NCBI RefSeq assembly: GCF_000282475.1
Contig: NZ_AKJF01000208.1
Span: 1-64,000 of the forward strand
DNA length: 64,000 bases
From: Pseudomonas sp. GM78
GTDB taxonomy: Bacteria; Pseudomonadota; Gammaproteobacteria; Pseudomonadales; Pseudomonadaceae
Reading direction: 5' to 3'
Below, piece after piece: positions 6,487 to 61,909 of this stretch (the first letter of the stretch is position 1; every line of letters begins with the position of its first letter). Both the position numbers and the translations under genes were made by a program. The notes beneath the pieces were generated by a model. That model was not told the origin of the DNA, did not search any database, and saw only the letters and a list, made by a program, of their open reading frames with translations.

Positions 6487-10560
<4,074 letters not shown>

Positions 10561-56950: not shown

Positions 56951-57835
56951 ATGCGAATGCGCCTTATGTTACTGGGCGGCGGAAATGCCCTTGGGCAGGC
57001 GCTGATTCGCCTCGGTGCGGAGGAAGACATCGGTTTCCTCGCCCCCCGCCCACCGCAAGACGGCTGGGATGCCGCGAGCCTGACGCAACTGCTCGACGAC
57101 ACCCGCCCGGACGCGTTGATCAACCTCGCCTACTACTTCGACTGGTTCCAGGCGGAGGCGGTCAGCGAGCAGCGCCTGGCCGGGCAGGAGCGGGCGATCG
57201 AGCGCCTGGCCGAACTGTGCCAGCATCACAACATCGTTTTGCTGCAACCCTCGAGTTATCGCGTGTTCGACGGTAACCGGGCGACAGCCTACAGTGAAAA
57301 AGACGAGCCAATGCCGCTGGGCCTGCGTGGCCAGGCCTTGTGGCGAATCGAGAAAAGCGTGCGCGCCACCTGCCCGCAACACGTGTTGTTGCGATTCGGC
57401 TGGCTGCTCGATGACAGTCCCGACGGCACCCTCGGGCGCTTCCTCGGCCGCGCCGAGCAGGCCCAGGAACTGTTGATGGCCGACGACCGCCGGGGCAATC
57501 CGACACCGGTGGACGACGCGGCCCGCGTGATCATTTCGGTGCTCAAGCAACTGGACTGCAGCGCGCCGCTGTGGGGCACCTACCACTACGCCGGGCACGA
57601 GGCGACCACGCCGCTGGCCCTGGGGCAGGCGATTCTCACCGAAGCGCGCGCCCTGCACCCGCTGGCCATCGAAGCGCCGACCGCCCAGGCTCACGCCACG
57701 CGACCGGACGCTGCGGAAGAACCGCAGCACGCGGTACTGGCCTGCAAGAAAATTCTGCACACCTTCGGAATCAAGCCACGCGCCTGGCGTGCGGCCCTTC
57801 CGAGTCTTCTGGACAGGTTCTATCGTCATGGCTGA
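56951..57835 (+). CDS. Degenerate RmlD-like SDR protein
   Basis: A 294-residue extended short-chain dehydrogenase-like protein related to dTDP-4-dehydrorhamnose reductase. The nucleotide loop is kept (GGGNALG, 9-15) and SSYRVFDG (101-108) matches the RmlD S-T-D-Y-V-F-D-G strand. The catalytic Tyr-x-x-x-Lys expected near 124-134 is missing: the region reads LGLRGQALWRIE. It overlaps the downstream epimerase by 8 nt and is syntenic with a P. aeruginosa gene next to the epimerase. It may be a catalytically inert or regulatory partner. Starts at 56957 or 56966 are also possible. Confidence 0.8.
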   Translation: MRMRLMLLGGGNALGQALIRLGAEEDIGFLAPRPPQDGWDAASLTQLLDDTRPDALINLAYYFDWFQAEAVSEQRLAGQERAIERLAELCQHHNIVLLQPSSYRVFDGNRATAYSEKDEPMPLGLRGQALWRIEKSVRATCPQHVLLRFGWLLDDSPDGTLGRFLGRAEQAQELLMADDRRGNPTPVDDAARVIISVLKQLDCSAPLWGTYHYAGHEATTPLALGQAILTEARALHPLAIEAPTAQAHATRPDAAEEPQHAVLACKKILHTFGIKPRAWRAALPSLLDRFYRHG

Positions 57836-58757
57836 TCGCCCCGTTTTGATTACCGGGGGGGCCGGCTTCATCGGCTCCCATCTCACCGATGCCTTGCTCG
57901 CCAAGGGCTATTCGGTACGGATCCTCGATGATCTGTCTTCCGGTAAACGCAGCAACCTGCCGCTGGACAATCCCAAGGTCGAACTGATCGTCGGCGACGT
58001 GGCCGATGCCGCCCTGGTCGCCCGGGCGATGGCCGGTTGCAGCGCCGTGGCGCACCTGGCGGCAGTGGCGTCGGTACAGGCGTCGGTGGACGACCCGGTG
58101 AAGACCCACCAGAGCAACTTCATCGGCTCGCTGAATGTCTGCGAAGCCATGCGCCAGACAGGCGTCAAGCGCGTGCTGTTCGCCTCCAGTGCCGCGGTGT
58201 ACGGCAACAATGGCGAAGGCGAGTCGATCGATGAAGACACGCCCAAGGCGCCGTTGACGCCCTACGCGTCGGACAAGCTGGCGAGCGAGCAATACTTCGA
58301 TTTCTACCGACGCGAGCATGGGCTGGAGCCGGTGATTTTTCGCTTCTTCAACATCTTCGGCCCACGTCAGGACCCGTCCTCGCCGTACTCCGGGGTGATC
58401 AGCATTTTCAGCGAGCGCGCGCAGAAAGGCCTGCCGATCACCGTGTTTGGCGACGGTGAGCAGACGCGGGACTTTCTCTACGTCGAGGATCTGGTCGATT
58501 GGCTGGTGCAGGCCATCGAGAAACCGCAGGTGGAAGACGGCGCGGTTAACGTCGGTTGGAACCAGGCGACCAGTCTCAAGCAAATGCTTGCAGCCCTCGA
58601 GATGGTCGTTGGCAAGCTGCCACCGGTCAGCTACGGCCCGGCGCGCTCCGGTGACATTCGTCATTCACGGGCCAACAACCAGCGTTTGCTGGAGCGCTTC
58701 AGGGCGCCCGAGCCGACGCCGTTGAGTGTTGGGCTGGCGCGGTTGCTGGGACAATAG
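57828..58757 (+). CDS. NAD-dependent epimerase/dehydratase (GalE/WbpP-like)
   Basis: A 309-residue extended SDR enzyme, probably acting on a nucleotide sugar. It has the Rossmann loop GGAGFIG (10-16), the catalytic triad region SSAAVYG (120-126) and Tyr146/Lys150 in YASDK, then RFFNIFGPRQ near 173 and the substrate-loop GDGEQTRDFLYVEDLV near 222. ATG 57828 gives the canonical MADRPVLITGGAG start and overlaps the RmlD-like gene by 8 nt. The sugar is unknown; WbpP-like UDP-GlcNAc C4-epimerase is one option. The two SDR genes likely work as a pair. Confidence 0.9.
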   Translation: MADRPVLITGGAGFIGSHLTDALLAKGYSVRILDDLSSGKRSNLPLDNPKVELIVGDVADAALVARAMAGCSAVAHLAAVASVQASVDDPVKTHQSNFIGSLNVCEAMRQTGVKRVLFASSAAVYGNNGEGESIDEDTPKAPLTPYASDKLASEQYFDFYRREHGLEPVIFRFFNIFGPRQDPSSPYSGVISIFSERAQKGLPITVFGDGEQTRDFLYVEDLVDWLVQAIEKPQVEDGAVNVGWNQATSLKQMLAALEMVVGKLPPVSYGPARSGDIRHSRANNQRLLERFRAPEPTPLSVGLARLLGQ

Positions 58758-58763
58758 AAAAAG

Positions 58764-58847
58764 GCGCCTGTAGAGGCGCGCTTGCCCCAAAGGCGCTAAT
58801 CACAGCTCCATAGCTCATCTTACTGGTATCCCCGTCTTCGCGGGGAT
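58764..58847. repeat. Two small hairpins after the epimerase gene
   Basis: A 6-bp stem (58764-58769 with 58774-58779, GTAG loop) is followed by a 7-bp stem (58828-58834 with 58841-58847, TCTTCG loop). The second resembles a repeat (CCCGTCTTCGCGGGG) often seen in Pseudomonas intergenic regions. Either could weakly terminate the epimerase transcript. Confidence 0.5.
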
Positions 58848-58890
58848 TCGCTTTCAAGCGGGCTGCCGTTCGTCAAAAAGTTCTATGCAC

Positions 58891-58906
58891 CTGTCAGATC
58901 TGACAG
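58891..58906. promoter_or_regulatory. Perfect 16-bp palindrome upstream of the 630-residue protein gene
   Basis: CTGTCAGATCTGACAG is its own reverse complement. It lies 77 bp before the chosen ATG 58984, in a non-coding stretch, and looks like a dimeric repressor or activator site. The binding protein is unknown. Confidence 0.55.
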
Positions 58907-58983
58907 TAGTCAAACATGCCTGCCTGATGTGTGATAGGCCGTGTCCGACCGGACTCAGGACCTTTAGCCACCGGGAGAAGGTG

Positions 58984-60876
58984 ATGAATACCAATGTCAG
59001 TCCTCGCGTATCGAACGAGTTGTTTGAGCTTTATCCGTTGCTCATCCCGAACTGGGTGCCTTCGGTTAAACCGGAAGGCATCGCCCATGGTGGTATTCCC
59101 CAAGCCCTTTACGATGGGCAGGCGCAGGGCCTCGAGTGTCTGGTTAAGCCCTGGACCGAGAGCCAGTTTTGCTCTTTTACCGTGGCAGTTGGTGATCGCG
59201 TGGATCTGTATGTCAATGACGATCCGACGCCTGTGGCGGGCAAGACCGTCGCAGCTGGTGAGGAGCAGCACCCCATCCGTTTTTATCTACCTCACGGACA
59301 TTTGAATCATGGCGTCAATCGTTTGTACTACACGGTCACCACAGAGAGTAGAGGCGCCGAACCGTCTCGTGACCTGTTGGTGCTGTATCACCTGGACATT
59401 GCAAACGACCCGGATCTGAAGATTCCGCTTGAGATCCTCAAAAATGGAGTCGATGGCAAGGCCGCGGCGCAGGGGGTGGAGTTCGGGTTCAGATATTCCA
59501 ACTGGAACAAGTACGATGTCATTGAATTCAGATTGGGCAAAACCAATGTCAGATTCGAAGTGCCCGACGCTCCGGCTTCAATTACCCGAACACTGTTTAC
59601 AGGGACGTTTCAGGAAGCGGGGGACAACGATAATACGTTGGCCGAGTTCGTTGTCATCGACCAGTTGGGCAACCAGAGCAAGCCCGAGAACCGGCTGGAC
59701 ATCGATCTCAACCGTGTTTCGTTGCAAGTCCCGAAAGTGGAAGGCATGGCCGGTAGCGACTTCGATCCCACCCTGCTTGAAATCAGGGTGCTGGTGCCCG
59801 AAGGTCGGTTGTTACCCAGCGACAAGCTGATCGTTAGCTGGCAAGGCCAAGCTGGCATCCCTGCAAGTAAATATACCAGCCCGCAGCAGCAGGTCAGTGA
59901 CGGGCTGGAAATTGTCGTGCCCCTTTCGGTGCTCGCCTACAGCCTGGGCAAGCCTGTCGATATCGCTTACGTCGTCGAGCGTAATGGCCAATCCACCCCT
60001 TCTCCGTCGTTGACGCTGAACGTTCTTGAACTACCGGCATCAGCCTTGACCCCGCCAGAGATCGTGGAGGCTGTTGACGGCGTGTTGGACGTGACGGCGC
60101 TGGGCGAAAAGAACGCCACCATTCATGCATTGCTCTGGACGCTGATCGAAGAGGGGCAATCATGCTGGATGAGCGTGGAAGGCAAAAAAACGGACGGCAC
60201 GCCTCATAATATGCGTCTATGGAACGGCCTGCCAGCGGTTGTCAATCCAGTCTGGATCAGTCAGGGGTTTTGGCCTCAAGTGCTCGGTAATAAATACTTG
60301 AATGAACTCGGTGCGGACACCGAACTCACGTTGAAGTTCAAGGTTTCGCTGGACAAGAGTAATAACGAGGAAACTGCGGTGGTGTTTACGGATCGGACTT
60401 ATAAGGTGGCCGTCGAGCCAATTCTTGAGGAAAATTTTGATCTTCAACCAACATCCATAATCAATTCTGGAGAGAGTATCGAGATACCAAGCATGCGTAT
60501 CAGTTTTACAAAAGGAGATGGGCTGGTAGCGATTGCTCCAATGGCTTTAGGCAATCCTGAATATCCTGGAAAACTTGAAGGTCAATTATTACATACCAAT
60601 TACACGTACACAGGATCAACGCCGCAAGAAGTAGTACTTCACCTAAGGTCAACTTATTCAAAAGTCAATTTTTGGATTGCGATGCAGAATTTCCCAGTGG
60701 ATTTTAACTTCTATGCAGCAGGTGATGTGTTTTTGGAAAAAATAACTTCAAAAACGATTGGTGTCCCGGAAGAGATAACATGCTCCAGACCGGGAATCGT
60801 AAAAATTGTAATACAACCGGGTGTGTCCGACCCACCGGATTGGATTGCGTTTGACACATTCACTTTTGCGACTTGA
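58984..60876 (+). CDS. Large multi-domain protein of unknown function with A+T-rich 3' part
   Basis: A 630-residue protein I cannot assign to a named family. ATG 58984 is preceded by GGGAGAAGG; an upstream in-frame ATG at 58885 overlaps the palindrome and is less likely. There is no signal peptide or membrane span. Residues about 1-480 look like consecutive beta-sandwich (Ig-like) domains of about 100 residues, with patterns such as LEIRVLVPEGRLLPSDKLI and DIAYVVERNGQSTPSPSLTL. The last 150 residues (from about 481) look different and aromatic-rich (WIAMQNFPVDFNFY, DWIAFDTFTF), possibly a carbohydrate-binding-like module. DNA from 60421 to 60780 is about 39% G+C by hand count against about 60% in the 5' part. 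A terminator follows. Confidence 0.8.
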   Translation: MNTNVSPRVSNELFELYPLLIPNWVPSVKPEGIAHGGIPQALYDGQAQGLECLVKPWTESQFCSFTVAVGDRVDLYVNDDPTPVAGKTVAAGEEQHPIRFYLPHGHLNHGVNRLYYTVTTESRGAEPSRDLLVLYHLDIANDPDLKIPLEILKNGVDGKAAAQGVEFGFRYSNWNKYDVIEFRLGKTNVRFEVPDAPASITRTLFTGTFQEAGDNDNTLAEFVVIDQLGNQSKPENRLDIDLNRVSLQVPKVEGMAGSDFDPTLLEIRVLVPEGRLLPSDKLIVSWQGQAGIPASKYTSPQQQVSDGLEIVVPLSVLAYSLGKPVDIAYVVERNGQSTPSPSLTLNVLELPASALTPPEIVEAVDGVLDVTALGEKNATIHALLWTLIEEGQSCWMSVEGKKTDGTPHNMRLWNGLPAVVNPVWISQGFWPQVLGNKYLNELGADTELTLKFKVSLDKSNNEETAVVFTDRTYKVAVEPILEENFDLQPTSIINSGESIEIPSMRISFTKGDGLVAIAPMALGNPEYPGKLEGQLLHTNYTYTGSTPQEVVLHLRSTYSKVNFWIAMQNFPVDFNFYAAGDVFLEKITSKTIGVPEEITCSRPGIVKIVIQPGVSDPPDWIAFDTFTFAT

Positions 60877-60920
60877 TTAGCATTGGAGAAGCCTAAGTAG
60901 CCAGATTGCTAATTCCCATT

Positions 60921-60960
60921 AACGGCCAGGCATTGGCAAACAATGTCTGGCCGTTGCTTT
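60921..60960 (+). terminator. Terminator after the 630-residue protein gene
   Basis: A 15-bp stem (60921-60935 with 60941-60955, with a G-T wobble) and a GCAAA loop, followed by GCTTT. The gap 60877-61210 (334 nt) otherwise holds only this, a palindromic repeat at 61153-61187 and A+T-rich sequence with no convincing ORF. Confidence 0.8.
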
Positions 60961-61152
60961 GGCGCGCAATGCCACCGTGGGAGTGATATGAAGCGGTTCA
61001 CCAATATTTCACATGAGCATCTGGACGTCTGACAGACGCTATACAAGTCCTGAGAAAATAAGATTGCCGAGGGTGATTTTGCTGAGCGAAACAATCTGCG
61101 TTCAGGAGTTTGTTGATCGGCGTTTGCCTGTCGAGGCGCCTTTTGTTGTTGC

Positions 61153-61187
61153 TGATCGTTCCCATCCACAGAGCATGGGAACGATCA
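61153..61187. repeat. Palindromic repeat downstream of oprG
   Basis: Perfect 13-bp arms (61153-61165 with 61175-61187), TGATCGTTCCCAT and its complement, with a 9-nt loop. I recall this GATCGTTCCCA repeat as widespread between Pseudomonas genes. It lies 23 bp past the oprG stop and may end its transcript, although no T tract follows. Confidence 0.7.
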
Positions 61188-61210: not shown

Positions 61211-61909
61211 TTAGAACTTGTAACCCAGACCGACCATGTAGATGAACGGATCGACATCCACGTTCACCCGTGCCCGGGTGCCCGGCGCCACGGCGTCGTT
61301 TTCCACTGTGGCGCGGGTATCGATGTCGATGTAACGCACCTGGGCGTTGATCATCACGTTGTCGGTCAGCATGTAGTCGGCACCGACCTGCCAGGCCATG
61401 CCCCAGGAATTCTTCGCCTTGAAGTTGCTGAAACCGTTGGCGCTGGCTTCGCTGCCCACGTGTTCATCGTAGATCCAGGTGTAGTTGATACCGGCGCCCA
61501 CGTAGGGCTGGAACGCAGACTTCGCATCCAGCGGGTAATACACCACGCTCAGGGTCGGCGGCAGGTGTTTGAGCGAACCGAGCTTGCCGTTCGCCGCGCT
61601 CAACGCGGTGCCCTTGAGTTTCACCTCATGCTCGAACGGCGTGGCCGCGAGCAGTTCGATACCCCAGTTGTTGGTGAGCATGTAGGCGACGTTGAGGCCC
61701 AATTGTGTGTCGCTGCTCATGGTCGCCTTGCCACCCAGGTCGGCGCCGCTCAGCGGGCCTTGGTCGACCTTGACCGTGGAACTGTCGGCCTTCGGGTTGA
61801 CGGTGATGGCACCGGCACGAAGGATGATGTCGCCAGCTTCGTGGGCGTGGGCGAACGGGGCTGCGAGCGCCAGCGCTACCAGCGAGGCGCCGAGCAAGGA
61901 CTTGTTCAT
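61211..61909 (-). CDS. oprG: OmpW-family outer membrane protein OprG
   Basis: An eight-stranded outer-membrane beta-barrel of 232 residues that allows diffusion of small, mostly hydrophobic molecules. A signal peptide spans residues 1-22 (cleavage after AHA), OmpW-family segments GDIILRAGAITVNP and PTLSVVYYPLD are visible, and the chain ends in the barrel-terminating Phe (MVGLGYKF). In P. aeruginosa OprG lies next to the same epimerase and is Anr-regulated. Here an FNR/Anr-type site is well placed upstream. In this genome a 630-residue gene is inserted between the epimerase and oprG. Confidence 0.95.
   Translation of the reverse strand: MNKSLLGASLVALALAAPFAHAHEAGDIILRAGAITVNPKADSSTVKVDQGPLSGADLGGKATMSSDTQLGLNVAYMLTNNWGIELLAATPFEHEVKLKGTALSAANGKLGSLKHLPPTLSVVYYPLDAKSAFQPYVGAGINYTWIYDEHVGSEASANGFSNFKAKNSWGMAWQVGADYMLTDNVMINAQVRYIDIDTRATVENDAVAPGTRARVNVDVDPFIYMVGLGYKF

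Follow-up and report, generated by a model that had tools for sequence, protein, structure and literature searches.

The window analysed here, a stretch of 64,000 nt from contig NZ_AKJF01000208.1 of Pseudomonas sp. GM78, carries between an epimerase-like gene and oprG a gene for a 630-residue protein (the window gene), preceded by the palindrome CTGTCAGATCTGACAG. On balance, we favour the explanation that this gene belongs to a box-controlled gene set with a LuxR-solo regulator, and that its product bears a swappable lectin-like tip. It is likely that a PpoR-type LuxR solo, or a form of about 80 residues consisting of the helix-turn-helix (HTH) only, reads the box and controls a mobile arsenal, and that loss of the sensing domain hard-wired the regulon. 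The window gene would accordingly be a member of a dispersed, exchangeable Pseudomonas gene set, and would have brought along a class II promoter of its own, whose lux-box-like palindrome lies at about -42. The most likely regulator would be the subgroup A (PpoR-type) LuxR solo whose gene is flanked by fpr and rlmG; it would bind the box with or without an acyl-homoserine lactone and recruit RNA polymerase. Besides toxin genes of the Tc/SpvB type, the arsenal would comprise lectin-type proteins with immunoglobulin-like (Ig-like) domains and a swappable tip, as well as further proteins that are secreted or lie at the surface. Because the same box precedes many such genes, including those of Tc/SpvB type, the protein would be made within a coordinated set for contact with organisms or surfaces.

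The box resembles lux boxes and class II LuxR promoters, in which a dyad of 16-22 bp is centred near -42, the class II position of LuxR activators. As the predicted -10 element follows the box at 24-29 nt and the start site is predicted 6-7 nt further on, the centre of the box would fall at about -42 to -44, overlapping the -35 region. CTGTCAGATCTGACAG is a perfect palindrome, and in other copies the flanks often lengthen the dyad; its CTGTCA arms differ from those of las/rhl boxes, which are of the CTGCCAG type. Of 14 related genes examined, 13 have CTGTCAN4TGACAG in front of them and the fourteenth (L094 5745) has a copy with one mismatch; the hexamer at +24 to +29 reads TGTGAT, TGAGAT or TTTGAT in those 13 and in the window gene. 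Among 52 boxes oriented by protein family (19 of 21 Ig-like genes, plus 10, 9 and 14 of other families), T occupied +29 in 46 and A occupied +28 in 37, compared with 18 and 18 on the opposite side. A LuxR protein may bind the box and activate the gene.

Across 298 Pseudomonas genomes, the exact 16-mer was found at 327 sites in 79 genomes (reversed control, 0), and the degenerate CTGTCA-N4-TGACAG at 1923 sites in 212 genomes (control, 23, counted by hand), ten of the CTGTCAN4TGACAG sites being in the own genome; these totals, and those of co-occurrence given below, were tallied from hand-copied tables. Neither the exact 16-mer nor its inner 14-mer was found in the literature searched. It could be argued that the window gene is an ordinary, recently acquired orphan under no shared control, the resemblance of its upstream palindrome to the box being incidental and its A+T-rich tail being decaying foreign DNA, as the low G+C content at third codon positions (GC3) of the tail and the presence of the gene at this site in the own genome only, among the gaps seen, would allow. 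However, the box is far more frequent than the reversed control, box and -10 element are kept in relatives, the reading frame is undisrupted and an AlphaFold model gives the tail a confident fold; we therefore find this view hardly credible.

The genes that follow the box were surveyed for 79 boxes (78 distinct) from 17 genomes, taken from the boxes listed and covering a part of those in each genome. Among the boxes listed, 21 have Ig-like relatives of the window gene downstream (18 found directly by phmmer), 10 have open reading frames (ORFs) of the SpvB/TcdB-middle type (two family-tested) and 9 have ORFs of an unnamed family with an LSVEGIDD-like start, the one at L226 being without a Pfam match. 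A further 5 precede ORFs of a family of 174-203 residues (one tested, SET at 24.6 bits), 4 precede small proteins with signal-like starts and 3 precede ORFs of one more family (one tested, VRP1, TcA-type); the rest precede other ORFs. Opposite the unnamed-family gene, seven of the nine loci contain a frame that we take to be LacI-like. At L170, L172, L210 and similar loci, the box in its exact form precedes genes of Tc-toxin type with SpvB/TcdB-middle and VRP1 domains. On contig C130 of the own genome, a DUF5122 beta-propeller gene (L100:200-1489) is preceded by CTGTCATTTCTGACAG, a frequent variant among the degenerate sites listed.

The own genome has a single Autoind_bind match, located on contig C212, outside the window, between fpr and rlmG; this candidate LuxR solo combines Autoind_bind (PF03472, 76.9 bits) with GerE (PF00196, 51.9 bits). 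Both neighbours were present in 17 of 17 loci checked in 15 genomes (L108-L114, L228-L237); fpr resembles NF008178 at 219 bits (cut-off, 390) and the name rlmG was taken from PMC10134790. According to the passages available from that paper, PpoR is flanked by the same neighbours, in the order fprB-ppoR-rlmG (PMC10134790), and the candidate of the own genome shares with PpoR and subgroup A both the two domains and the place between fpr and rlmG. Subgroup A LuxR solos are described in almost all fluorescent Pseudomonas species analysed, in the available part of PMC8546723. Orthologues of the LuxR solo, defined as matches at E <= 1e-50, were found in 142 of the 298 genomes, and 140 of these 142 have at least two boxes. 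At least two boxes occurred in all 94 genomes with a strong match (at least 215 bits), in 46 of 48 with a weaker match and in 40 of 156 without a match; the 94 strong-match genomes, whose orthologues are the closest, contain 13 box copies on average. The association between box and LuxR is strong, with counts uncorrected for phylogeny.

A follow-up LuxR search covered 80 of the 156 genomes without a match: every one of the 40 that have boxes, and 40 from among the 116 that are box-poor. A diverged LuxR match (E <= 1e-35) was obtained in 17 of the 40 box-bearing genomes, and the four that were checked all lie between fpr and rlmG. HTH-only forms were then sought in the remaining 23 box-bearing genomes and in 37 box-poor ones. 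In 18 of the 23, an HTH or broken luxR stands between fpr and rlmG (L272-L289), and in 12 of these 18 loci the first Met leaves 77-87 residues. The frames between fpr and rlmG at L273-L287 and L289 have 85-190 residues, with the HTH of the solo kept and mostly little more. HTH matches were also obtained in 8 of the 37 box-poor genomes, at no more than 50.1 bits, compared with 51.2-82.5 bits for the 18; two of their loci were seen, that of G023 being beside neither fpr nor rlmG and that of G110 beside both. The stretch RTxx[FY]H is kept in the 18 HTH or broken copies and reads QSTVNFH in G110 (L291). Some lineages would have given up the domain that senses the signal and retained the one that binds DNA, so that the regulon became hard-wired, and the HTH-only relics at fpr-rlmG would be a natural experiment in which the signal was lost and the regulon kept.

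Several observations weigh against control of the box by this regulator. G110 has a full-length LuxR between fpr and rlmG and no box in its genome; two orthologue genomes fall short of two boxes (none in G007, one in G306); in G084, G169, G242, G244 and G101, 2-3 boxes are present and no relic of LuxR was found at the locus, two of these five genomes being incomplete; and LuxR-type matches, whatever their locus, occur in 12 of the 40 box-poor genomes. In the available passages of PMC8546723, no promoter, whether that of the subgroup A solo itself or those of its flanking genes, depended on the solo. Over-expression of PpoR in P. putida WCS358 altered metabolic and ribosomal genes, as far as the accessible part of PMC2703642 goes, and the 18 genes available from the 84 in the table of the pplR mutant (PMC11543582) include no toxin or Ig-like gene. 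Membership of the same clades could be what the LuxR solo and the boxes both mark. The box would then be a real promoter element read by another regulator, with the fpr-rlmG solo as a clade marker, a possibility favoured by co-occurrence counts that take no account of phylogeny, by expression data for PpoR/PplR that are without such targets in the available parts of PMC2703642 and PMC11543582, and by G110, G007 and G306, with a luxR gene and none or one box. However, an HTH or broken copy survives at the locus in 18 of 23 box genomes lacking the full gene, and the RTxx[FY]H stretch retained by those 18 is altered in box-less G110. As a dyad near -42 is also the lux-box arrangement of LuxR proteins, we regard a mere clade marker as rather unlikely.

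The biofilm effects of PpoR/PplR given in the available text of PMC11543582 agree loosely with box-controlled contact proteins. The accessible passages on PpoR and subgroup A are without a target box; the present analysis proposes one, together with a regulon and with HTH-only forms of the solo. If a PpoR-type solo reads the box, the question of subgroup A targets becomes a direct promoter-fusion test, and the box directs attention to proteins for contact with hosts or competitors, not to metabolism.

The initial annotation had proposed a conserved carrier with an exchangeable C-terminal domain, and this proposal is supported by the relatives sought in 398 genomes of the genus Pseudomonas. The promoter palindrome, the regulon and the probable regulator are absent from that annotation. 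The 13 closest genes, from 12 genomes, align from residue 1-12 of the window protein to residue 475-513, where all alignments stop, at 41-62% identity (57-62% in the nine closest and 41-53% in four more). Beyond this point their tails have 58-520 residues, the shortest (G220) being cut by a contig end, and the window tail (residues 486-630) is unmatched by the tails of any of these relatives (best E 0.24); the N-terminal part is conserved and the C-terminal part varies. The composition of the two parts differs as well: codons 1-478 have 54.6% G+C and 64.9% GC3, codons 479-630 have 40.8% G+C and 33.6% GC3, and a 200-nt profile gives 40-42% across 60400-60899. The low-G+C 3' part of the earlier description is therefore upheld, whereas the 60% given there for the first part holds locally, against a mean of about 55%. 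The G+C content of the tail is below that of the N-terminal part in 12 of the 13 relatives, with G171 as the exception and G220 lower by just 0.5 points. The tip domain is matched in 28 of the 398 genomes (own included), in other proteins and at 28-42% identity, with DNA of 41-58% G+C in the 12 measured; low G+C is no constant mark of the tip. The gene appears to carry a glycan-binding-type tip that was swapped on a fixed stalk.

The protein was modelled with AlphaFold from an alignment, as single-sequence folding gave a predicted local distance difference test (pLDDT) score of only 34.9. In agreement with the serial Ig-like domains and different C-terminal module suggested initially, the model contains a stalk of Ig-like domains and a tip that, by model comparison, has the beta-sandwich fold of a carbohydrate-binding module (CBM). 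The best Foldseek match of the protein is an adhesin; complement and macroglobulin proteins also rank high, which we read as the signal of generic serial beta-sandwiches. One set of fold-comparison rows spans mainly residues 476-630, so that the fold family of the stalk is barely tested in them. The tip has only 8-15% identity to CBM4, CBM29, CBM61, a pectate-lyase CBM and gingipain cleaved-adhesin domains, and, unlike these modules, it is without an attached enzyme and without a sequence-family match; it belongs to no named CBM family, as neither Pfam nor PDB sequences searched with the tip profile gave a match at E <= 10. Among the tip relatives, few columns are invariant (F1, G12, G27, F79 and D140 of tip profile A2), and these include no recognisable catalytic set. 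Like RTX adhesins (an ice-binding adhesin and LapA), the window protein joins an Ig-like stalk to a ligand-binding-type module; unlike them, it is short, its tip is terminal and it has its own promoter, and neither RTX repeats nor a VWA domain were found in it with Pfam and NCBIfam. We infer that the protein is of an extracellular type, and that its predicted glycan-binding-type tip may mediate sugar binding and adhesion.

Adhesins and delivered effectors had both been suggested at the outset. In a delivered effector, the stalk would serve in trafficking and the C-terminal domain would be the payload, toxic or enzymatic, and regulation would be shared with toxins of the Tc type. The conserved front and the exchanged A+T-rich tail are shared with polymorphic toxins, whose C-terminal modules are typically exchangeable and A+T-rich; in addition, the box is shared by Tc-type genes, inspection shows no signal peptide, in agreement with the initial annotation, and an 86-residue GTG frame (60909-61169, minus strand) adjoins the window gene on the side of oprG. 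Unlike in polymorphic toxins, however, the window tail is CBM-like and matches no known toxin family in Pfam or NCBIfam. The whole protein likewise has no family in either database at E <= 10, where the HMMER filters drop most weak matches, which agrees with the initial annotation, and the invariant columns of the tip speak against an enzyme. Because the tip has a CBM fold and no toxin family was matched, the adhesin side of the suggestion fits better and the effector side less well; we consider a delivered effector quite improbable. Tc toxins are released by lysis or holin-type systems, and, as the adhesin-like protein has no visible signal peptide, a similar release, or Lap secretion, may be conjectured for it.

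The gene of about 1.9 kb and 630 residues described between epimerase and oprG was confirmed, and its coordinates are collected below. Longer frames exist, for example one of 663 residues from ATG 58885; the start at 58984 is preferred because 58885 lies 5' of the predicted promoter and GGAG fits 58984. No close relatives were found in a scan of genome contigs or among plasmids, and Rfam gave nothing at the gathering threshold.

Table 1. Features of the window gene, its promoter and its flanks, with the loci of the unnamed box-preceded family.
Feature	Position	Strand	Remarks
Epimerase-like gene (left flank)	57789-58757	+	Listed frame; the gene may in fact start further in
Stretch without counterpart at the site in G285 (same species)	58751-61177	.	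G285 has about 1.3 kb of different DNA there
Lux-box-like palindrome CTGTCAGATCTGACAG	58891-58906	.	Ends 77 nt before ATG 58984
Predicted -10 element TGTGAT	58930-58935	+	24-29 nt 3' of the box
Shine-Dalgarno-like GGAG	58974-58977	+	6 bases before ATG 58984; read from the sequence
Window gene	58984-60876	+	Intact frame, 630 residues
Predicted stalk, conserved carrier	58984-60417	+	Residues 1-478; about four Ig-like beta-sandwich domains, limits inferred from strands of the AlphaFold model
Predicted exchangeable tip	60418-60873	+	Residues 479-630; C-terminal CBM-like beta-sandwich, 40.8% G+C
Terminator-like hairpin	60921-60955	+	15-nt arms, 5-nt loop; 3' of the window gene
oprG (right flank)	61211-61909	-	Name from the initial annotation; family not tested
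Unnamed-family genes	L150, L152, L157, L180, L190, L203, L208, L222, L226

The suggestion that the gene was inserted at a conserved locus is borne out by the corresponding gaps of other genomes. The epimerase adjoins oprG in 13 of 13 genomes of a first set and in 17 of 24 of a second, and the window gene is missing from the gap in all 30 other genomes with a measurable gap (13 + 17). Where a genome has a close relative of the window gene (12 genomes), oprG is located elsewhere than that relative and the gap measures about 60-490 nt; in G285 it measures about 1.35 kb. In the second set, the epimerase lies within reach in 17 of the 24 Pseudomonas, with gaps of 67-722 nt, six of them calculated from coordinates on the minus strand; in the remaining seven, the next gene is directly beside oprG in three, a contig ends in one and other sequence is found in three. 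The 722-nt gap (G018, L260) contains a 151-residue frame without a box. Of the downstream stretches of these 37 genomes, 21 were scanned for the box, which is present only in that of G285 (L083:6477-7786), where CTGTCAGGTTTGACAG precedes a 147-residue ORF at 6913-7356 with no Pfam match. The window gene and the G285 ORF are both box-preceded, so that in each of the two genomes of this species the site holds cargo behind a box, whereas nearly all other genomes seen have a short gap there. Remnants beside the 147-residue ORF read as a group II intron reverse transcriptase (family not tested). Intron-borne transport, which these remnants suggested, was dropped, as no such remnants were seen in the window gap.

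When the window is compared with the relatives at lap loci, DNA similarity in the left flank starts at about 58889, at the box, and the moved unit would therefore consist of box, promoter and gene. The window gene may thus illustrate how a tip is exchanged while the stalk stays, and how a gene and its promoter together reach a new site. By reading, lapG/lapD starts or a LapA-type C-terminal end were recognised near the gene in 7 of the 12 relative loci (L084, L087-L091, L094); at L084, the only locus family-tested, LapG and LapD score above the NCBIfam cut-offs and a neighbour has RTX and VWA domains. At another locus, a DUF6124 gene (L086:12880-13239) lies beside a box-preceded Ig-like gene, and similar starts occur in L089, L090 and L094.
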